Assembly (NCBI RefSeq): GCF_945890115.1
Contig: NZ_CAMDCK010000020.1
Span: 1-44,266, forward strand
Direction: 5' to 3'
Origin: Sphingorhabdus sp. EL138
GTDB lineage: Bacteria > Pseudomonadota > Alphaproteobacteria > Sphingomonadales > Sphingomonadaceae
DNA length: 44,266 nucleotides
Positions 32,988 through 44,266 of the stretch are shown here, one piece after another. A program made the translations under genes and the position numbers. Each line of letters opens with the position of its first letter. The stretch's first letter is position 1. A model generated the notes under the pieces. It did no database searches. It was not told where the DNA came from and saw only the letters and a list, made by a program, of their open reading frames with translations.

Positions 32988-33782
32988 TTAAGGCGCGATG
33001 CCATTGCCCGGAAGCGACGCATTTACGATACCGCCATCGCACGCAATGGTCTCACCCACGATATAATCGCCAGCGCGCGCCGCCAGGAAGATCGCCAGGC
33101 CAGCCATATCCTCCGGCGTTCCGATTCGTGGGAACGGGATATTCTTACCCACCGCTTCTGCATGGTCGCGCGCAGCCTTGTTCATGTCCGACTGGAATGC
33201 ACCCGGCGCAATGCCCGAAACCAAGATATTGTCTTTGACCAGTTCAGCCGCCAAGCGGCGAGTCAAATGGATCACGGCAGCTTTCGATGCCTGATAGCTG
33301 TAGGTCTGCCACGGGTTGATACGCAAGCCATCGATAGACGCAATGTTGATGACCTTGCCGGGGCGGTCAAAGGTTGCGGCTGCTTTCAACTGCGGGTGCA
33401 AGGCTTGCGTCAAAAAGAATAAGGATTTGACGTTCAGATCCATCACACGGTCCCATCCGCTTTCCGGAAACTGACCAAATTCCGCGCCCCATGCGGCCCC
33501 AGCATTATTGACCAAAATGTCCAACTTCTCCTCGCGCGCCGCGATTTGCTCGGCGAGTGAGAGACAACCGTCCACGGTCGAAAGGTCACAAGGCAGGCCG
33601 ATGACCTGATTGCCGAATTCGGCGACGGTTTCCTCAATCTGGTCGACCTTACGCGCGCTGACATACACGCGTGCTGCGCCAGCCTTGAGATAGCCTTCGA
33701 CGATCATCTTGCCGATGCCGCGCGATCCGCCAGTGACTAAGGCCACGCGGCCCTTGAGGTTGAATAATGTGTTGATGTCCAT
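32988..33782 (-). CDS. Short-chain dehydrogenase/reductase
   Basis: A 264-residue classical SDR, NAD(P)H-dependent. The cofactor motif T-G-G-S-R-G-I-G is near 17, N-N-A-G-A near 95, and the catalytic Ser with Y-Q-A-S-K near 165-169. The C-terminal G-E-T-I-A-C-D-G-G is typical. AGGAGAG lies 6 bases before the ATG at 33782; an in-frame extension runs into the repeat. It follows an acyl-CoA dehydrogenase on the same strand, so a hydroxyacyl-CoA or alcohol step in acid breakdown is likely. The exact substrate is unknown. Confidence 0.9.
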   Translation of the reverse strand: MDINTLFNLKGRVALVTGGSRGIGKMIVEGYLKAGAARVYVSARKVDQIEETVAEFGNQVIGLPCDLSTVDGCLSLAEQIAAREEKLDILVNNAGAAWGAEFGQFPESGWDRVMDLNVKSLFFLTQALHPQLKAAATFDRPGKVINIASIDGLRINPWQTYSYQASKAAVIHLTRRLAAELVKDNILVSGIAPGAFQSDMNKAARDHAEAVGKNIPFPRIGTPEDMAGLAIFLAARAGDYIVGETIACDGGIVNASLPGNGIAP

Positions 33783-33801
33783 GGGTCTCTCCTGACAGTT
33801 G

Positions 33802-33904
33802 CCCTCCCGCAGACGGGAGGGGTTAGGGGTGGGGCTCGCCACAGGCGAGCGGGCTAAGAAGCAGGCGACAACCCTCCCCCGGCCCCTCCCGCATGCGGGA
33901 GGGG
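33802..33904. repeat. CCCTCCCGC palindromes with internal GGCTCGCC hairpin
   Basis: CCCTCCCGC-AGA-CGGGAGGG (about 33803) and CCCCTCCCGC-AT-GCGGGAGGGG (33883-33904) flank GCTCGCC-ACA-GGCGAGC (33834-33850). The intervening GGGTTAGGGGTGGG word is common in such elements. It separates the acyl-CoA dehydrogenase stop from the SDR start. Confidence 0.8.
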
Positions 33905-33911
33905 AGAATGC

Positions 33912-35048
33912 TCAATAACCGCTCATCGTCGCCACGCGATCTGCGTGATAATAAGCGTCGCCGAAAAATTCGTTCAAGCTGCGGTCGCGCTTCATATATA
34001 GGCCGATGTCATATTCGTCAGTCATGCCGATACCGCCATGCATTTGCACGCCTTCTCGCACCGAAAGATTGCAGGCCAGCCCGGCCTTCGCTTTGGCTGC
34101 GGCGACATACAGTTCGGCCTTGGCATGGCCTTCGTCCATTAAAGATTGCGCCTTCAGCACGATCGAACGCGCGCCTTCCATTTCGCCATATAAATGCGCC
34201 GCGCGGTGTTGAAGCGCCTGAAATTCGCCAATGACGCGGTCGAATTGCTTGCGCGTCTTTAGATATTCAAAGGTCATGTCCATCGCGCCCGTGCCAACGC
34301 CCACCATTTCAGCAGCAGCACCCACGCGTCCAGCGTCGAGCATTTTGGAGAGCACGGCCCAGCCGCCATCGACTTCGCCGATGACGGCGTCGGCATCCAC
34401 CTGAACACCGTCAAGTTTTACATGCGCAGCAACAGCGGAATCAACAAGCCTTGCTGCCTCCATCGACAGGCCGGCGGCATCCTTGTCCACCGCGAACAAG
34501 GTCAAACCATCGGTTTCACCTGCCGCGCCAGCGGTGCGCGCCGCGACGATCAGCATGTCCGATGACGCGCCTTGCACGACAAATTGCTTTTGCCCCGTCA
34601 GCTTAAAGCCATTGCCGCTGCGTTCCGCAACGCAGGCGATTTTCTCCGGACGGTGCTTGACGCCTTCTTCAATCGCGATGCCGATCACGGTTTCGCCAGC
34701 CAATATGCCGGGGAACCAGCGGTCGCGCATCGCCTTGTCCGCCAACTTCAACGCCGCAACCGCCGCAACTGACGTGGTCAGGAAAGGCGAGGGTGACAGG
34801 TTGCGGCCAATTTCTTCAAGGACAATGCCAGCCTCAATCTGCCCCATGCCCATGCCGCCATCAGCCTCGGGGATGAGGATGCCCGTAAAGCCCATTTCGG
34901 CAAATTGCTTCCACAGGCCATGGCTAAAACCGTCCTTGCACCCCATGTCGCGGAACTTGCGGAAATGGGTAACGGGCGCTTCGCTAGCCATGAAATCCCG
35001 CGCGCTGTCGCGCAGCATATTCTGGTCGTCGTTTAAGGTCATTGCCAT
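33912..35048 (-). CDS. Acyl-CoA dehydrogenase family, probable non-catalytic partner subunit
   Basis: A 378-residue flavoenzyme of the FadE class. The N-terminal helical, middle beta and C-terminal helical domains are recognisable (G-F-T-G-I-L-I-P-E-A-D-G-G near 53; M-H-G-G-I-G-M-T-D-E-Y near 340). Where partners of this type carry a catalytic H-E-R, this protein reads D-A-G-R-V (near 240), and the E-G-G-T-S-E loop of the neighbour is absent. Together with the adjacent larger dehydrogenase this resembles heteromeric ChsE1/ChsE2-type enzymes. GGAGAGG lies 7 bases before the ATG. Confidence 0.85.
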   Translation of the reverse strand: MAMTLNDDQNMLRDSARDFMASEAPVTHFRKFRDMGCKDGFSHGLWKQFAEMGFTGILIPEADGGMGMGQIEAGIVLEEIGRNLSPSPFLTTSVAAVAALKLADKAMRDRWFPGILAGETVIGIAIEEGVKHRPEKIACVAERSGNGFKLTGQKQFVVQGASSDMLIVAARTAGAAGETDGLTLFAVDKDAAGLSMEAARLVDSAVAAHVKLDGVQVDADAVIGEVDGGWAVLSKMLDAGRVGAAAEMVGVGTGAMDMTFEYLKTRKQFDRVIGEFQALQHRAAHLYGEMEGARSIVLKAQSLMDEGHAKAELYVAAAKAKAGLACNLSVREGVQMHGGIGMTDEYDIGLYMKRDRSLNEFFGDAYYHADRVATMSGY

Positions 35049-35185: not shown

Positions 35186-36346
35186 TTAACCGCCCGGCAT
35201 CTCAAGGATGCGCTTCGACACGACGTTCAGCATCACTTCACTGGTGCCGCCCTCAATCGAGTTCGCCTTGGTCCGCAACCAATTACGCGCCTTCGACCCG
35301 CCATTGGCGCGCTCGCTTTCCCACTCAAGCGCTTGGCTGCCGCCAATCGACATCACCAACTCATTGCGTTTTTTGTTCAATTCGGTGCCGACATATTTCA
35401 TCAGGTTGGAATAAGCGGGGTGCGCCTTGCCCGTTTTCCATTCGTCCATGAAACGTTCGCCATGCGCACGGAAGGTCAGGTTATCGACATCGAACAAGGC
35501 CATTTGCGCGCGCAGCACAGGCTCTTCGGCCAAGGTCGCCTTCATCGCCGCGCCGATCGAGGTCACGCCGCCATCGCCGCCCATGCCCGAGATCATCTCG
35601 CGTTCATGGCCAAGTAGATATTTCGCCACATCCCAGCCGCGATTGATTTCGCCAACAATTTGATGCTTCGGCACAACAACATTGTCGAAAAATGTCTCAC
35701 AGAAAGGCGAATTGCCCGAAATCAGCTTGATGGGCTTGGTCGAAACACCGGGCGTTTCCATGTCGAACAACAGGAAGCTGATGCCGTGATATTTGTTGGT
35801 CTTGTCGGTGCGCACAAGGCAGAAAATCCAGTCCGCCTTGTCCGCATATGACGTCCAGATTTTCTGGCCATTGACGACCCAATGGTCGCCCTTATCCTCG
35901 CCAAAGGTCTGCATCGACACAAGATCGCTGCCTGAACCTGGCTCCGAATAGCCCTGACACCAACGGATTTCGCCGCGGGCGATTTGGCCCATATAATGTA
36001 TTTTTTGTTCTTCGGTGCCGAATTTCAGCAAGGCTGGCCCAAGCATCCAGATACCGAAGCTGTTGAGCGGCGAGCGACAGCCAAGCTTTGCCATTTCGTG
36101 ACGCAGTATTTTTGTTTCCTGCGCGGAAAGACCAGCGCCGCCATAAGCCTTGGGCCAATCAGGCACGGTGTAGCCCTTGGCGACGCAAGCTTCGAGCCAC
36201 AATTTTTGGGCTTCGGATTGGAACAGGAAATTGCGTCCACCCCAGCAGACGTCTTCGTCACCTTTGGCCGGTGTGCGCATTTCGGCGGGGCAGTTTTCCT
36301 CCAGCCAGGCGCGCGCCTCGGCACGGAATGTTTCAAGGTCGGACAT
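35186..36346 (-). CDS. Acyl-CoA dehydrogenase family, probable catalytic subunit
   Basis: A 386-residue acyl-CoA dehydrogenase. G-Y-S-E-P-G-S-G-S-D-L near 135 contacts FAD and substrate. L-L-G-H-E-R-E-M-I near 260 offers the catalytic Glu at the position used by isovaleryl- and long-chain enzymes. S-I-E-G-G-T-S-E-V near 365 is the FAD loop. The start at 36346 follows AGGAGAG; a longer frame to 36427 is rejected. It probably forms an alpha2beta2 enzyme with the next gene. It is divergent from the transporter operon. Confidence 0.92.
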   Translation of the reverse strand: MSDLETFRAEARAWLEENCPAEMRTPAKGDEDVCWGGRNFLFQSEAQKLWLEACVAKGYTVPDWPKAYGGAGLSAQETKILRHEMAKLGCRSPLNSFGIWMLGPALLKFGTEEQKIHYMGQIARGEIRWCQGYSEPGSGSDLVSMQTFGEDKGDHWVVNGQKIWTSYADKADWIFCLVRTDKTNKYHGISFLLFDMETPGVSTKPIKLISGNSPFCETFFDNVVVPKHQIVGEINRGWDVAKYLLGHEREMISGMGGDGGVTSIGAAMKATLAEEPVLRAQMALFDVDNLTFRAHGERFMDEWKTGKAHPAYSNLMKYVGTELNKKRNELVMSIGGSQALEWESERANGGSKARNWLRTKANSIEGGTSEVMLNVVSKRILEMPGG

Positions 36347-36451
36347 GAGGCTCTCCTGTTTAATTGCGTGATGAATTTTTGGGCGGTCACGCACCGAAAC
36401 GCAAGCCTTTATCGGTGAACGATGCATGCCGTAACGTCATTTGCATCTCGA

Positions 36452-36557: not shown

Positions 36558-37973
36558 ATGACATCAGTCGTCGCGCTTCCCCGATCGTTAAAAGTCATGC
36601 ACGGCCTCGGCTCAGTTGCTTATGGCGTCAAGGACAATGGCTTTTCAGTATTCTTGCTGATCTTCTATAATCAGGTGTTGGGAATCAATGCCGGTCTTGT
36701 TGGCACCGTCATCATGGCCGCGCTGATATTCGATGCCTTTGCCGACCCGATTATTGGCGAATTGTCCGACCGTACGCAAAGCAAATGGGGCAGGCGCCTG
36801 CCTTGGTTATATGCGGCGGCCATTCCGCTTGGCATCATCTGGCTGTTGCTGTGGCATCCCCCCGCAATGGGGCAGACGGGCACGATAATCTGGCTGTTCT
36901 GCACCGCCGTCTTGGCGCGCACATTCGTGGCAATGTGCGAGGTGCCGTCCATCGCCCTCGTGCCTGAACTTACCGGCGATTATGACGAACGCACACGGTT
37001 GATACGTTATCGGTTCCTATTTGGCTGGGCGGGCGGCTTGCTCATGCTCATTTTCGCTTATGGCATTTTCTTCACCGGCGAAAAGGGCGTGAGCGACCCT
37101 GCGGGATATGATGCTTATTCGGTCTGGGGCGCGCTAATGATGAGCGGCGCGGTGTTGATTTCCGCGCTTGGCCAGCATCGGCATGTGGCCAAGCAATCCC
37201 CCCCAGCGCCACGCGGTGCCGGCCTTGGCCATGCTTTTGCCGAGGTGAAAGCGACCTTATCGAACCGCGCCTTTCTATGGCTCGTGTCCGCCGCGCTGTT
37301 CGGGCTCATCAATCAAGGGATGACCTTTGCGCTCACCAATTATCAGCTCTCCTTTCTGTGGCAGCTGCAACAGATGGAAATGCTTTATTATGCGCTGACC
37401 CTATTCTCGACGGTCATCATTGCCTTCATCATCGTCCCATTTGTCTCCGCGCGACTGGGCAAGAAAAATGCGGCGATCCTGTTCGCGATTATCTCACTGA
37501 CCTTCACGGGCGTATTATACGGTAGCTGGCTGCTTGACCTTGTGCCCGGTGCGCCGTCGGACCCTTCGATCCTGTTCATGTTTGCGTTAATGACCATCGC
37601 CAATAGCGCGGCGGTAAGTATGATGATGCTGACATCCTCAATGATGGCCGATGTGGTTGAGGCATCGCAGCAGGAAACGGGCAGGCGTTCCGAAGGGCTG
37701 TTTTTCGCAGGCTATTTCTTCATGCAAAAATGCGCGGTTGGCATCGGCACCTTTGCCGCCGGAATGATCCTGAGCTTTGCCAATTTCCCGCAAGATGCGA
37801 AGCCGGGCGAAGTTGATGTCGCTGTCCTCGACGGGTTGGCGTTATATTATATGGGCGCAGTGGTGGGCTTTGGAATTATCGGCATTCTGATCCTGCGCCA
37901 TTTCCCGATTTCGCGCGAAAGTCACAATGAACGCTTGCGCGCCTTGAACACGGCGGCAGAGTCTGCCAGTTAA
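36558..37973 (+). CDS. MFS transporter, GPH (glycoside-pentoside-hexuronide) cation symporter type
   Basis: A 471-residue 12-helix inner-membrane transporter. The N-terminal G-L-G-S-V-A-Y-G-V-K-D-N-G-F-S-V-F and F-D-A-F-A-D-P-I-I-G-E-L-S-D-R-T are the GPH/MelB signature, with the cation-binding Asp region. Despite the family name, such proteins in sphingomonads often lie with acid or steroid catabolism genes, and the neighbours here are acyl-CoA enzymes, so an organic acid or terpenoid substrate is possible. It is the first full gene of the rightward operon. The next gene starts 32 bases on. Confidence 0.9.
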   Translation: MTSVVALPRSLKVMHGLGSVAYGVKDNGFSVFLLIFYNQVLGINAGLVGTVIMAALIFDAFADPIIGELSDRTQSKWGRRLPWLYAAAIPLGIIWLLLWHPPAMGQTGTIIWLFCTAVLARTFVAMCEVPSIALVPELTGDYDERTRLIRYRFLFGWAGGLLMLIFAYGIFFTGEKGVSDPAGYDAYSVWGALMMSGAVLISALGQHRHVAKQSPPAPRGAGLGHAFAEVKATLSNRAFLWLVSAALFGLINQGMTFALTNYQLSFLWQLQQMEMLYYALTLFSTVIIAFIIVPFVSARLGKKNAAILFAIISLTFTGVLYGSWLLDLVPGAPSDPSILFMFALMTIANSAAVSMMMLTSSMMADVVEASQQETGRRSEGLFFAGYFFMQKCAVGIGTFAAGMILSFANFPQDAKPGEVDVAVLDGLALYYMGAVVGFGIIGILILRHFPISRESHNERLRALNTAAESAS

Positions 37974-38005: not shown

Positions 38006-39289
38006 ATGGATTTCGATCTCAACGACAAGCAAACATACTGGCGGGACCGTATCCGCGACCATAATGAACGCTTCTTGCGTCCGCGCATCGCCGATTATTA
38101 TGCCGAACAGGCAGTGGGCGACCGTTGGAAAGTGCTTCAAGTCGTTGAAGAGGAAAAGGCGCGCGCGAAGGCCGCTGGCCTTTGGAACTTGTTCATGCCG
38201 CCAACGTCGGGCCGCGTGCATGTCGACGACAGCGTCCATTTTGATGGCCCCGGCCTCACCAACATGGAATATGCATTGTGCGCCGAAGAAATGGGCCGCA
38301 TCGGCTTTGCATCTGAAGTCTATAACTGTTCCGCACCCGACACCGGCAATATGGAAGTGTTCCTGCGTTACGGTACCGCAGAGCAAAAAGAAAAGTGGAT
38401 GATCCCGTTGATGAACGGCGAAATCCGTTCGGCATTCTTGATGACGGAGCCAGCCGTTGCGTCGTCGGATGCCACCAATATCGAAACTTCGATCCGCCGC
38501 GAAGGCGACGAATATGTCCTCAACGGCGTGAAATGGTGGTCATCAGGCGCAGGCGATCCGCGCTGCAAAATCGCGATTGTCATGGGCAAGACCGATTTCG
38601 AAGCCAAACGCCATGCGCAACAATCGATGGTGTTGATGGAACTTGATGCCCCCGGCGTTAACATTCTGCGTCACCTTCCCGTATTCGGATATGACGACGC
38701 GCCGCATGGTCATATGGAAATCGAATTGAAGGATGTCCGCATTCCGGCATCGAACATGTTGCTGGGCGAAGGTCGCGGGTTTGAGATCGCGCAAGGCCGC
38801 CTTGGACCAGGCCGCATCCACCATTGCATGCGCACCATTGGTACGGCGGAAGAGGCGCTGGAGAAAATGTGCAAGCGCCTGCAATCGCGCGTTGCCTTTG
38901 GCAAGACCGTTGCCGAACATAGCGTATGGGAAGAGCGCATTGCGCGTGCCCGTATCGACATTGAAATGACGCGTCTGCTGTGCCTGAAGGCTGCGGACAT
39001 GATGGACAAGGTCGGCAACAAGGCGGCGGCGGCAGAAATCGCGATGATCAAGGTGCAGGCCCCAAATATGGCGTTGAGCATCATCGACAATGCCATCCAA
39101 GCGCATGGCGGCGGCGGTGTGTCCGACGATTTCGGTCTCGCATCTGCTTGGGCGCATCAGCGCACCTTGCGTCTGGCCGATGGTCCCGACGAAGTGCACG
39201 CTCGCGCGATTGCCCGTATGGAGCTTGGCAAGCATGGAAGCCGCAGCAAAGACGGCCTGTCCAGCGGCGATATGGGGGCAACACGGTGA
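38006..39289 (+). CDS. Acyl-CoA dehydrogenase, ACAD10/ACAD11 (LvaC) type
   Basis: A 427-residue flavoenzyme. G-G (near 210) and [13 protein letters not shown] near 142 form the FAD/substrate region. The C-terminal [11 protein letters not shown] (near 390) is the mark of human ACAD10/ACAD11 and replaces the E-G-T-x-E/Q of ordinary members. In those proteins and in Pseudomonas LvaC, the enzyme acts on 4-phosphoacyl-CoA made by a kinase. The kinase gene lies two genes downstream. AGAGGAATGAG precedes the ATG. The stop overlaps the next start (GTGA). Confidence 0.92.
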
Positions 39290-40374
39290 AGGCTGCCGTT
39301 CTAATCGAAGCGGGCAAACCGCTTCAGATTGAGCAGATCAACATTGCCAATCCCGGGCCGCATGAGGTGCTGATCCGCACCGCGGCCTGCGGGCTATGCC
39401 ATAGCGACCTGCACTTCATCGAAGGTACCTATCCGCATCCACTGCCCGCTATCCCAGGGCATGAGGCGGCGGGCATTGTTGAGGCTGTGGGCAGCGAAGT
39501 GCGCACCGTGAAGGTGGGTGACGCCGTTGTCACTTGTCTTTCGGCGTTTTGTGGCCATTGCGAATATTGCGTCACTGGACGCATGTCCTTGTGCCTTGGC
39601 GGCGACACACGGCGTAAAGCAGGTGAGGCTCCGCGTCTGACGCGGCCAGATGGCAGCATTGTCAACCAGATGCTGAACCTGTCGGCTTATGCCGAAATGA
39701 TGCTGGTGCACGAACATGCGTGCGTCGCAATCCATCCCGACATGCCTTTACCGCAAGCGTCCGTTATCGGCTGCGCCGTGACGACAGGGGCCGGCACGAT
39801 ATTCAACGCGTGCAAAGTAACGCCGGGCGAAACCGTGGCCGTGATCGGCTGCGGCGGTGTTGGTCTTGCGACTATCAATGCCGCGAAAATTGCTGGCGCT
39901 GGCCGCATCATTGCTGCTGACCCTATGCCGGAAAAACGTGCACTTGCAATGAAGCTGGGTGCGACCGATGTCATCGATCCCATGGATGCCGATGCAGCCA
40001 AGCAAATTCAGGAATTGACCAAGGGCGGCGTCGATCATGCGATTGAGGCTGTAGGTCGTCCTGCATCGGGCGAACTTGCGGTCAAGTCGCTGAAGCGCGG
40101 CGGAACGGCTACCATCTTGGGCATGATGCCGTTGCAGCATTCGGTTGGCCTATCCGCGATGGACCTATTGTCGGGCAAGAAACTGCAAGGCGCGATCATG
40201 GGCGGCAACCGCTTTCCGGTTGATATTCCGCGTCTGGTGGATTTTTATATGCGCGGGATGCTCGACCTCGACACCATCATTTCGGAAACCATTCCGTTGG
40301 AACGGATTAACGAAGGCTTTGACCAGATGAAGCGCGGTGACTCCGCCCGTTCGGTCATCGTTTTTGACCAATGA
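39286..40374 (+). CDS. Zinc-dependent alcohol dehydrogenase
   Basis: A 362-residue medium-chain dehydrogenase. Catalytic zinc ligands are C-G-L-C-H-S-D near 36 and G-H-E near 61. The structural zinc loop reads [15 protein letters not shown] near 86-100. The NAD Rossmann motif G-C-G-G-V-G-L is near 190. The GTG start at 39286 overlaps the ACAD stop by four bases; longer frames upstream lie inside ACAD. It ends with ATGA overlap to the kinase. It could oxidise an alcohol feeding the pathway or reduce an aldehyde product; the direction is unknown. Confidence 0.92.
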
Positions 40375-41453
40375 GCGCATCCCCAACCCCGATTGATGCG
40401 CAGACGGCCTTTACCGGCACCGTTGCGCCGACCGGAGCCGACATCCTCGACGCCGATAAATTGGCGGCATGGATGTCGGATAATGTCGAAGGCTTTAAAG
40501 GCCCGGTCGAGATTCTGAAATTTGCAGGTGGGCAGTCAAACCCGACCTACCGGTTGAACGCGAAAAGCGGTTCCTACGTCCTACGCCGCAAGCCTTTTGG
40601 CGTGCTATTGCCTAGCGCGCATGCCGTTGACCGTGAATATAAAGTTATTGCTGGCCTCTATCCCACGGGCTTTCCGGTCGCCAAGCCCTTTGGCCTGTGC
40701 ACCGATGACAGTATCGCTGGGTCCATGTTTTACATCATGGACATGGTTGAGGGTCGCACTATTTGGGACGGCGCTATGCCGGGGTCAAACCCGCCTGAGC
40801 GCCGCGCCACTTATGAGGCGATGATTGATACCCTCGCGGCCTTGCACAATGTGGATGTCGAAAGCGCTGGCCTGTCCGATTTTGGTAAGCCCGGAAACTA
40901 TTTCGGACGGCAGGTCGAACGCTGGACGAAGCAATATCGCCTCGCCGAAACCGAAACCATGCCCGAAATGGAGCGGCTGATCGAATGGCTGCCCAAGACT
41001 TTGCCCGAACAAACGCGCACCAGTGTGGTGCATGGTGATTATCGCATCGACAATATGATCTTCGATGCAAAAGAGGCTAAGGTCATCGCGGTTCTGGATT
41101 GGGAATTGTCGACGCTGGGCGACCCACTGGCGGATTTCACCTATGCCGCAATGGCTTGGGTTACCCAAAATGAGGGCCGGTCGGGCATTATGGATTTGGA
41201 CCGCGCGAGCTTAGGTATTCCCGAACTTGACGCGATGGTGGAACGTTACTGCGCGGCAACGAACCGCGACGGCGTGCCAGACATGAACTGGTACTTTGCC
41301 TATAATTTTTTCCGGTTAGCCGGGATTATTCAGGGCATCAAGAAACGCGTCATCGACGGCACCGCAAGTTCATCCCATGCGCAAGCCATGGCCGAACGCG
41401 TGTTCCCGCTGGCCGAATCCGCCTGGAAATTCGCCGAAAAAGCCGGGGCGTAG
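40371..41453 (+). CDS. APH-fold phosphotransferase, ACAD11 N-terminal (LvaA) type
   Basis: A 360-residue kinase. F-A-G-G-Q-S-N-P-T-Y (near 47) is the glycine-rich loop. V-L-R-R-K-P-F-G (near 67) holds the ATP lysine. V-V-H-G-D-Y-R-I-D-N (near 220) is the catalytic loop, and V-L-D-W-E-L-S-T-L-G-D-P (near 242) the metal-binding Asp. The order and wording match the N-terminal half of human ACAD11. In LvaA and ACAD10/11 this domain phosphorylates the 4-hydroxyl of 4-hydroxyacyl-CoA. It is coupled to the alcohol dehydrogenase by a 4-base overlap. Confidence 0.92.
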   Translation: MSASPTPIDAQTAFTGTVAPTGADILDADKLAAWMSDNVEGFKGPVEILKFAGGQSNPTYRLNAKSGSYVLRRKPFGVLLPSAHAVDREYKVIAGLYPTGFPVAKPFGLCTDDSIAGSMFYIMDMVEGRTIWDGAMPGSNPPERRATYEAMIDTLAALHNVDVESAGLSDFGKPGNYFGRQVERWTKQYRLAETETMPEMERLIEWLPKTLPEQTRTSVVHGDYRIDNMIFDAKEAKVIAVLDWELSTLGDPLADFTYAAMAWVTQNEGRSGIMDLDRASLGIPELDAMVERYCAATNRDGVPDMNWYFAYNFFRLAGIIQGIKKRVIDGTASSSHAQAMAERVFPLAESAWKFAEKAGA

Positions 41454-41460
41454 AAATAAG

Positions 41461-41590
41461 TTCCTCTCCACTCGTGGGGAGGTGGCAGACCGCAGGGCTG
41501 ACGGAGGGGGTTCTCCGTTAGCATGATGTTAGAGTGGAGAGCCCCCTCCCCCATCCTACGGATGGTCCCCCTCCCCGCAAGCGGGGAGGA
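41461..41590. repeat. CTCCCC-family repeat block splitting the operon
   Basis: Words TGGGGAGGTGGCAG and CTGACGGAGGGGG near 41475, an inverted CCCCCTCC near 41543, and a final CTCCCCGCAAGCGGGGAG hairpin. The same words occur at 9492-9636. It fills the gap between the kinase and the first SDR and may attenuate transcription into the downstream genes. Confidence 0.8.
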
Positions 41591-41606
41591 ACTTGGAGTG
41601 AGAGAA

Positions 41607-42368
41607 ATGTCATTATTCGATATGACCGGTAAGGTCGCCATCATCACCGGTTCGTCACGCGGCATCGGGCAAGCGATTGCCCAAGAAATGGCCGGGCAAG
41701 GCGCAAAGGTTGCGATTTCCAGTCGGAATATCGAGGATTGCGAAGCAGTGGCTGCTGGCATCAATGCCAAGCATTCAGGCGCTGCGATTGCCGTGGCCTC
41801 AAGCCTCTCCTCCAAAGAGTCCTTGCAAAACCTAGTCGACGAAACCCGCAAGGCGTTTGGCAAAGTCGACGTTCTGGTCTGCAATGCGGCATCGAACCCG
41901 CATTATGGCCCGATGGCGACCATCACCGACGAGCAACTGCGCAAAACACTCGATCACAATATCGTCTCGCAGCATTGGCTGATCCAAATGGTCGTACCCG
42001 AAATGATCGAGCGGAAATCGGGATCCATCGTGATTGTGTCGTCCATCGGCGGCCTGCGCGGCTCACCGATCTTGGGCGCGTATGCAATCACCAAGGCGGC
42101 GGATATCCAGATGACCAAAAACCTCGCCCGGGAATATGGGCCGTATAATGTGCGCATCAACTCGATCGCACCGGGGCTAGTGAAAACCGATTTTGCCAAG
42201 GCATTGTGGGAGAATCCCGAAAATCTGAAAGCGTCCACCTCTGGCGCGGCATTGGGCCGCATCGGCGAGCCGCGCGAGATCGCTGGCGCTGCGGTGTATT
42301 TGGCATCCGACGCATCAAGCTTTATGACAGGGCAGACAATTGTCGTTGATGGGGGCGTCGTCGTATGA
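41607..42368 (+). CDS. Short-chain dehydrogenase, DHRS4-like
   Basis: A 253-residue classical [11 protein letters not shown] is near 15, C-N-A-A-S-N in place of N-N-A-G near 89, and Y-A-I-T-K near 157. The stretch I-V-I-V-S-S-I-G-G and the end [11 protein letters not shown] resemble human DHRS4, a carbonyl/retinal reductase. The start at 41607 is chosen because the frame upstream lies in the repeat. It is coupled by ATGA to the next SDR. LvaD of the levulinate pathway is also an SDR, so a 3- or 4-hydroxyacyl step is plausible. Confidence 0.92.
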
Positions 42369-43162
42369 GTGGAGCATTAGAGGGCAAAGTCGCCATCATC
42401 ACGGGCGCGGGTTCCGGCATTGGCCGCGCATCCGCCATCCGTTTCGCAGCCGAGGGTGCGAAGGTCGTTTTGGGCGATATGGCGGCCTCCGTCCACGACA
42501 CCTCTGCGATGATCGGCGATGCCGCCACCGCCGTGCAAATGGACGCAGGCGATGAGGCGGATGTCACAGCTTTGGTCGCCAAGGCCATCGCGCTCCACGG
42601 CCATCTCGACATCGCCTTTGCCAATGCAGGCATTTCCGGGGGCATGGAGGGGATTTTCGACAATACGGTCGAAAATTTCACCAGCGTTCTGCGCGTCAAC
42701 CTGATTGGCCCGTGGCTGATGGTTAAACATGCCGGAAAGGTCATGGCCGATGCAGGCAATGGCGGGTCGATCATCTTGACAGCAAGCGTCGCGGGCATTC
42801 GTTCGGGCGCAGGCGGGCCACCTTATTCGGCGTCAAAGGCCGGCGTTATCAATTTGGCGCAGGTCAGCGCGCAGCAATTGTCAGGCACCAATGTACGCTG
42901 CAACGCGATTTGCCCGGGTCTCACCGAAACCGGCATGACGAAGCCGACTTTCGATTATGCCCGCGAAAAGGGCGTGACCGAAAAAATCGGCCGCCTAAAC
43001 CCATTGCGCCGAGGTGCGCAGCCAGAGGAGCTCGCTAATGTTGCCTTGTTCCTTGCCAGCGACCAAGCCTCTTATGTCAACGGCCAAGCCATTGCCGTGG
43101 ACGGCGGGCTTTCCAGCTCGCACCCCGTTACCCGCCAATTGACAGGACAAACCGCCGTATGA
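42365..43162 (+). CDS. Short-chain dehydrogenase/reductase
   Basis: A 265-residue classical [11 protein letters not shown] is near 14, A-N-A-G-I-S near 88, and Y-S-A-S-K-A-G near 156. The C-terminal [11 protein letters not shown] is standard. It differs clearly from the preceding SDR, so the two are not a tandem duplicate. It overlaps both neighbours by four bases (ATGA), so it is translated in line with the SDR before and the hydrolase after. The substrate is unknown. Confidence 0.92.
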
Positions 43163-44266
43163 ACGCCGAAGATTTAGGTTTCGTGCCCGACCGCCTCGCG
43201 CGGATTCCCGCATTTATTCAGGCCAATTATCTCGACAATGGCAAATTGCCTTTTGCGTCCGTGCTGGTTGGGCGCGGTGACGATATCGCGTTGCAATGGA
43301 GCTCGGGCGTGGCCGAAGATGCCATTTTCCGCATCGCATCGATGACCAAGCCAATCACTTCGGTCGCGTTCATGCAGTTGGTGGAACAGGGCAAGGTCGC
43401 GCTGACCGATCCGGTCATCAAATATATCCCCGAATTTGCAAAATTGGGCGTGTTTGTGGGCGGTGGCGGCAATGTGCCATTTATGACGCGCGCGCCATCC
43501 ACGCTCATGCGGGTGGTTGACTTGCTGCGGCATACGGCCGGATTCACCTATAGCTTTCAGGAACAAGGCAATGTCGACGCGGCCTATCGCAAGACCGATG
43601 TTGAAAGCTGGACCAAAAACACATCGCAAAGCGTGATTGATACACTTGCGCAAATCCCGCTGGAATTCGACCCCGGCACGCAGTGGAATTATTCGGTTGC
43701 CACCGACATCGTCGGCATATTGGTTGAACGGATCAGCGGGCTATCCCTGCCTGAATATTTCCAAACGCATATTTTTGCGCCTTTGGGCATGACCGATACA
43801 TTTTTTCAAGTGCCCGCCGATAAGGCAGCGCGTATCCCCGAAGGCTTTGGCTTTGACCCCGAAGCGAAAATGAAGCTGATCGACAAAGCGGGAGCCGAAA
43901 GCATGTGGGCCAAAGGCTGGTCATTTAACTCCGGCGGTGGGGGCCTAGCGTCGAGCGTTGCGGATTATCATCGGTTCTGCCGGATGCTGCTGAACGGGGG
44001 TGCGCTTGACGGCGTACAAATCTTGAGCCCCAAGACAATAGAATTGATGACCGCCAATCATATTCCCGGCGGTCAAGACCTGACGCAAATGTCGAAATCC
44101 TTGTTCAGTGAGGCCGAAATGGCCGGCATTGGCTTTGGTCTTGGCTTTGCCACAACCATCGACAGCGCCGCGACACTTGCGCCTTGTTCCAACGGCGATT
44201 TTTATTGGGGTGGCATGTATTCCACCGCCTTTTTCGTCGACCCGGTTGAGGACATCATCATGATTT
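43159..44266 (+). CDS. Serine hydrolase, beta-lactamase/esterase (class C) family, cut by window edge
   Basis: About 369 residues are visible; the C-terminus is missing. The S-x-x-K nucleophile motif is I-A-S-M-T-K-P (near 61), the Y-x-x motif is N-Y-S-V-A-T-D near 178, and a [12 protein letters not shown] segment near 258 is family-typical. There is no signal peptide, so it is probably cytoplasmic and an esterase or lactonase rather than an antibiotic-degrading enzyme. It overlaps the SDR by ATGA. Within this operon it might open a lactone or ester to give the hydroxy acid; that is inference. Confidence 0.88.

Follow-up and report, generated by a model that had tools for sequence, protein, structure and literature searches.

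Known enzymes for 4-hydroxyacyl-CoAs and a related locus in Sphingorhabdus

ACAD10 and ACAD11, members of the acyl-coenzyme A dehydrogenase (ACAD) family, phosphorylate 4-hydroxyacyl-coenzyme A (CoA) substrates and then eliminate the phosphate (PMC11342911). In bacteria, kinase and ACAD have been described as separate proteins, and two such proteins from Burkholderia, Q63VL0 (kinase) and Q63VL1 (ACAD), replaced either half of ACAD10 in vitro, in a report whose main text makes no mention of LvaB (PMC11342911). According to the published account of levulinate utilization in Pseudomonas putida, lvaA, lvaB, and lvaC are needed for growth and lvaE is dispensable; the lva cluster of Pseudomonas citronellolis lacks lvaB, and homologs of lvaABCD are present in Alpha-, Beta-, and Gammaproteobacteria (PMC6692424, which cites Rand et al. 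for the last point). Here, we analyze a 44,266-nt stretch of DNA from Sphingorhabdus sp. EL138 (hereafter, the window), which is the entire contig C20 (NZ_CAMDCK010000020.1) of a 37-contig, 2.31-Mb genome and encodes a candidate pair of this kind. A11 (38006..39289, + strand; 427 aa) is an ACAD11/LvaC-type ACAD and predicted 4-phosphoacyl-CoA phosphate eliminase, whereas KIN (40371..41453, + strand; 360 aa) is a predicted 4-hydroxyacyl-CoA kinase of the ACAD10/11 type with an aminoglycoside phosphotransferase (APH) fold. Judged from sequence, the pair very probably performs 4-hydroxyacyl-CoA phosphorylation and phosphate elimination, a reading to which we assign a probability of roughly 85%.

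As described for Burkholderia Q63VL0/Q63VL1 and for P. putida LvaA and LvaC, the kinase and the ACAD are encoded by separate genes, and the two reactions predicted here are those of the P. putida pair. Unlike mammalian ACAD11 and ACAD10, in which the two activities share one fused polypeptide, the window carries two genes with a third, an alcohol dehydrogenase gene (ADH), between them. In animals, the fused ACAD11 channels 4-hydroxy fatty acids into energy metabolism. A further difference lies in the accessory genes: the P. putida operon, by its description, contains the needed lvaB together with lvaD and lvaE, whereas no LvaB- or LvaE-like gene is found in the visible part of the present cluster. 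A first-pass annotation of this DNA had taken the split genes and the missing LvaB and LvaE as signs of a distinct variant pathway. This does not hold, since published separate pairs, a cluster lacking lvaB, and growth without lvaE mean that a split pair without LvaB and LvaE is not itself new. The split pair is thus already known; what is less ordinary is the conserved cluster that surrounds it, which was absent from that earlier description.

Structural matches and active-site residues of A11 and KIN

When compared with solved structures, A11 matched the ACAD11 chains 8v3u and 8v3v (mouse) and 2wbi with E-values of 6.9e-131 to 3.5e-130, followed by the putative acyl-CoA dehydrogenase 4hr3 (2.5e-125); the next-best match reached only 7.7e-38. 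KIN, which carries the APH family domain (PF01636, 187.5 bits), matched 3dxp (4.3e-115), the kinase half of the ACAD11 structure 8v3v (6.5e-76), and 9o56 (2.7e-60). Mouse ACAD11 aligns with residues 26-411 of the 427 in A11 and with residues 26-355 of the 360 in KIN, and its active-site residues are shared by both proteins. The motifs from which the likeness to the two halves of ACAD11 had been proposed, an 11-residue stretch in A11 and GGQSNPT and HGDYRIDN in KIN, are indeed present in the open reading frames (ORFs) starting at 38006 and 40371, and the structure matches and retained diagnostic residues bear the likeness out. A chance motif match was considered as well and is excluded by the structure matches, at approximately 1e-130 for A11 and at the two values given above for 3dxp and 8v3v.

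The residues that set ACAD11 apart have been described in some detail. Modelling and substitutions indicate that R626, H634, and R637 bind the 4-phosphate; changes at any of the three disrupt the ACAD step, with R637K having only a partial effect, while D753 acts as the catalytic base and R631 is general to ACADs (PMC12440821). By the same account, the phosphate-binding residues are found in ACAD10/11 and LvaC and are not found in conventional ACADs (PMC12440821). In A11, R265, R270, H273, R276, and D392 correspond to mouse R626, R631, H634, R637, and D753, respectively. All five are kept in 174/174 homologous ORFs with 45% identity or more, a set that, like the other ORF sets used here, contains duplicates because the loci overlap; at the position of mouse H597, His is present in 173 of the 174. 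The remaining 8 of the 182 ORFs labeled as A11 fall below 45% identity and were counted separately as distant ACADs. Seven of these eight differ at each of R626, H634, R637, and D753, and Glu replaces D753 in seven. As a control, nine of the 18 other ACADs encoded in the same genome were inspected, two of them inside the window and two (L009 and L011) partial, with some columns unreadable; among the nine, only L006, on contig C16, carries all five residues.

For the kinase site, modelling has pointed to D220, N225, R86, and R176 of mouse ACAD11 (PMC12440821). KIN D223 and N228 correspond to the catalytic D220 and N225, and R180 to the CoA-contacting R176; these three are kept in 195/195 homologous ORFs, as is R88-E89, an Arg beside the helix-C Glu. 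The Gln of the GQSN motif and the Gly of the HGD motif are only slightly more variable, being present in 190 and 191 of the 195, respectively.

Phylogeny agrees with the earlier expectation that both proteins would group with ACAD11. A quick maximum-likelihood analysis of 63 ACAD rows placed A11 in a 46-row clade together with mouse ACAD11 and 44 rows from bacteria, some of which are duplicates; the clade has a Shimodaira-Hasegawa-like approximate likelihood ratio test (SH-aLRT) value of 99. L006 is sister to this clade at 85, and the other eight of the nine control ACADs from the same genome lie outside. The corresponding kinase tree (quick, 78 rows) joins KIN to 3dxp and mouse ACAD11 in a clade of 60 rows with an SH-aLRT of 89, which is below 95; outside it fall 9o56, four kinases at 32-34% identity, and the kinase encoded on C16.

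Co-occurrence of A11 and KIN

Among 249 Pseudomonadota genomes searched with thresholds of E <= 1e-100 for A11 and E <= 1e-30 for KIN, A11 was found in 67 and KIN in 69, and 67/67 genomes with A11 also have KIN; KIN occurs without A11 in two (G160 and G368), and A11 occurs without KIN in none. The two genes lie within 5 kb of each other in 45 of the 67 genomes and on the same strand within 2 kb in 35. The KIN reading frames in the 45 close-pair genomes are at most 508 codons long, too short for a fused gene, and none of the 45 is therefore fused. The same one-way pattern is seen in the window's own family: in 149 genomes (KIN threshold, E <= 1e-60), A11 is present in 111 and KIN in 118, with KIN found in 111/111 of the A11 genomes and alone in seven. 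These co-occurrence and distance counts indicate that separate, often linked KIN and A11 genes are the rule in Pseudomonadota, a further reason why the split is no mark of a distinct variant, and they make the ACAD10/11-type pair a common, paired trait of the phylum. Separately, in three genomes belonging to a single family (G205, G209, and G333), no kinase match lies next to A11.

These counts also bear on a rather different reading, under which chance alone would have placed an aminoglycoside-type resistance kinase (KIN) close to an ordinary acyl-CoA dehydrogenase (A11). KIN does have the APH fold that such a kinase would have; however, it scores just 34.5 bits against the APH(3') family model, for which the cut-off is 205, KIN accompanies A11 in every A11-bearing genome of both samples, and A11 carries the phosphate-binding residues of ACAD10/11 and LvaC. 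An antibiotic-resistance role is thus refuted as far as sequence allows, and we regard this reading as extremely improbable.

Several points nevertheless weigh against assigning 4-hydroxyacyl-CoA phosphorylation and phosphate elimination to the pair. Both reactions are assigned by homology to biochemically tested enzymes and by the conservation of residues at the active sites. One residue of the modelled kinase site fits poorly: under the numbering that suits the other residues, residue 86 is a Phe in the mouse chain, with Tyr, Phe, His, or Ala elsewhere, and the Arg beside the helix-C Glu is residue 84. Both trees are quick and contain long branches, mouse ACAD11 among them; the finer position of ACAD11 is thus unsure, and the finer branching order in either tree should not be over-read. 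Named LvaA and LvaC sequences are not among the tree rows. Of the 67 Pseudomonadota genomes that have both genes, 22 lack a KIN-A11 pair within 5 kb, and the presence-absence counts ignore shared ancestry and hold A11 and KIN to unequal E-value limits. Finally, a palindromic dispersed repeat of 153 nt (41454..41606; predicted RNA fold -92.2 kcal/mol, z -6.6) parts KIN from the next gene of the cluster, so that the genes downstream may be co-expressed less tightly.

Gene order around the pair

The gene between A11 and KIN, ADH (39286..40374, + strand), encodes a zinc medium-chain alcohol dehydrogenase (PF00107/PF08240). It overlaps each of its neighbors by 4 nt, and thus the tightly overlapping operon of the first-pass annotation is real for three genes, although the pair itself is not adjacent and ADH had gone unmentioned. 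We place the start of ADH at the ATG at 39286, whereas the mechanical ORF list begins the gene at a GTG at 38980. The protein falls under the cut-off of every NCBIfam model listed, the top one being TIGR03989 (305.9 of 440 bits), and its structural matches are class I/III alcohol dehydrogenases at E-values of 4.5e-78 and weaker. ADH is found (E <= 1e-110) in 16 of the 249 Pseudomonadota genomes: it sits between A11 and KIN in seven genomes of the window's family and is placed elsewhere in nine others. The A11-ADH-KIN triad therefore looks like a sphingomonad arrangement.

Downstream of the palindromic repeat, of which six further partial copies exist elsewhere in the genome, three more genes follow on the + strand. 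The first two encode short-chain dehydrogenases (SDRs): SDRa (41607..42368; PF13561, 212.8 bits with the ORF taken from 41523) and SDRb (42365..43162; PF13561, 191.3 bits). The start of SDRa was set at 41607, as the start in the ORF list, 41523, falls within the repeat. The third, HYD (43159..44265), is a serine hydrolase with a beta-lactamase/esterase fold (PF00144, 182.7 bits; esterase 7pp3, E 2e-96) that is cut by the end of the window, which is also the end of the contig, so the operon may run on. Upstream of A11 lies an MFS_2/GPH-type transporter gene (36558..37973, + strand; PF13347, 361.1 bits), preceded by three divergent genes on the - strand. ACADa (35186..36427) resembles the large-type partner of what is likely a two-subunit acyl-CoA dehydrogenase (pimC-like, 258.6 bits, the cut-off of 623.85 not being reached), ACADb (33912..35048) resembles the small-type partner (pimD-like, 234 bits, below the cut-off of 652.7), and SDRc (32988..33842) is another short-chain dehydrogenase (PF00106, 163.7 bits).

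Proposed pathway and comparison with the lva operon

In the pathway that we propose, KIN would transfer a phosphate from adenosine triphosphate to the 4-hydroxyl of a 4-hydroxyacyl-CoA. A11, as an enzyme using flavin adenine dinucleotide (FAD), would then remove the C2 proton, shuttle a hydride to and from FAD, and expel the phosphate to yield a 2-enoyl-CoA, which could enter ordinary beta-oxidation. For the remaining proteins, family and gene position allow no more than a guess at function. Interconversion of 4-hydroxy and 4-oxo forms, the job of LvaD, and oxidation of downstream hydroxyls most likely fall to ADH and the SDRs; ACADa and ACADb may serve as a two-subunit acyl-CoA dehydrogenase in a further round; HYD could be an esterase or lactonase, and the MFS_2 protein an importer. 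Activation of the acid itself would be left to one of the AMP-binding ligases encoded elsewhere: 13 AMP-binding matches were counted in the genome, none of them on the window's contig, which ends inside HYD; the reported lack of an LvaE-like ligase is accordingly correct for the contig as it stands, although a later gene is possible. With 13 ligases elsewhere, we do not take the missing local ligase to be a gap in the pathway.

The reported lack of LvaB is borne out. Between A11, ADH, and KIN there is no space for a small LvaB-like gene, and a genome-wide search gave no match to DUF6285, the family that we take LvaB to represent. This bears on whether the cluster might simply be a levulinate pathway, that is, an lva operon whose genes stand in a different order and whose LvaD is ADH or an SDR. 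The same two core enzymes are present, as are SDRs that could fill that role, yet besides the missing DUF6285 protein, the visible part of the cluster lacks a ligase and has three acyl-CoA dehydrogenases where the lva operon has one. Moreover, all 12 of the DUF6285-adjacent kinases in the kinase tree form a separate clade from KIN with an SH-aLRT of 100. We thus consider a levulinate pathway unlikely here.

DUF6285 is present in 18 of the 249 Pseudomonadota genomes. As a route to LvaA and LvaC it was tried and set aside, the neighboring kinases being only 24-26% identical to KIN. At two sphingomonad loci (L118 and L119, in genomes G042 and G041), the DUF6285 match falls within an open frame of 455-487 codons close to the match of a divergent kinase, suggesting that kinase and DUF6285 are fused there.

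A conserved cluster in sphingomonads

To gauge how far the surroundings of the pair are conserved, named genomes were scanned with ADH alone as the query, and the best 80 of 398 relatives were kept; the nearest of these loci are from Sphingorhabdus, at up to 99% identity. As these 80 loci are closely related to the query, the conservation reported here is measured within sphingomonads only. With identity limits of 35-60% depending on the gene, A11, ADH, and KIN occur in this order on one strand with gaps of less than 400 nt at 67 of the 80 loci, and at 48 of the 49 that have full flanks. Twelve of the 13 loci without this order are shorter than 12 kb; the other, L218, is full-length and has no A11 at the identity limit. 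Among the 49 full-flank loci, ACADa and ACADb are each found in 48, SDRa and SDRb each in 41, SDRc in 31, the MFS gene in 29, and HYD in 25. The ACAD pair lies downstream in the Sphingomonas loci shown, whereas it is upstream and divergent in the Sphingorhabdus loci, and the gene content thus outlasts rearrangement. Farther from the query the picture thins: in 60 kinase-centered loci from the family, hand-chosen with best matches favored, the A11-ADH-KIN order is present in 34, A11 in 41, and ADH in 36, which indicates that more distant kinases are often without the cluster. The conserved set of genes surrounding the pair is a genuine peculiarity of sphingomonads, and a literature search of open-licence papers found no description of the cluster (A11-ADH-KIN, two SDRs, and the two-ACAD pair).

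We tentatively propose, as a reading somewhat short of an even chance, that the cluster is a dedicated pathway, common in sphingomonads, in which C4 phosphorylation and elimination would be coupled to a zinc alcohol dehydrogenase and a heteromeric ACAD, with a substrate class beyond levulinate and simple 4-hydroxy fatty acids. In a separate reading, the substrate might be a specialized hydroxy acid (cyclic, branched, or steroid-like), with the ACAD pair and ADH forming the substrate-specific part and the chemistry of A11 and KIN unchanged. The near-constant retention of ACADa, ACADb, and the A11-ADH-KIN order at full-flank loci, despite the move of the ACAD pair, fits this idea, as does the nearest solved relative of ACADa, Tcur3483, which we take to be a steroid ACAD. 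The match to Tcur3483 is weak, however (E 1.6e-41), and says little about the substrate, and no link was found between the cluster and any such compound; a specialized substrate of this kind is possible, but clearly below even odds. The mildly interesting question is which substrate this conserved sphingomonad cluster breaks down. Strains of Sphingomonas, Sphingopyxis, Novosphingobium, and Sphingorhabdus that carry the cluster are available from culture collections and offer a setting in which the natural substrate could be sought.

Related loci

Two plasmid-borne loci carry variations on the same genes. On the Novosphingobium capsulatum plasmid NZ_CP140001 (L124), as in the window, A11 and KIN occur with two SDRs, followed there by genes for fatty-acid degradation, acyl-CoA dehydrogenases among them. 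Unlike the window, this plasmid has no ADH between A11 and KIN, and a long-chain-fatty-acid-CoA ligase and a 3-hydroxyacyl-CoA dehydrogenase are encoded within the cluster itself. On a plasmid of Croceicoccus marinus (L123), KIN is accompanied by SDRs, four other acyl-CoA dehydrogenases, two thiolases, A11, a zinc alcohol dehydrogenase, an adenylate-forming enzyme, a TonB receptor, and hydrolases; A11 is divergent from ADH in this case and lies approximately 10.5 kb from KIN.

The genome of Sphingorhabdus sp. EL138 itself holds a second, divergent ACAD11-like gene on contig C16 (L282:2924-10314), with equivalents of R626, R631, H634, R637, and D753. Its neighbors encode a TonB receptor, an SDR, an APH kinase with approximately 30% identity to KIN, and an AMP-binding ligase, so that this locus may represent a further 4-hydroxyacyl-CoA system, one equipped with a ligase of its own.

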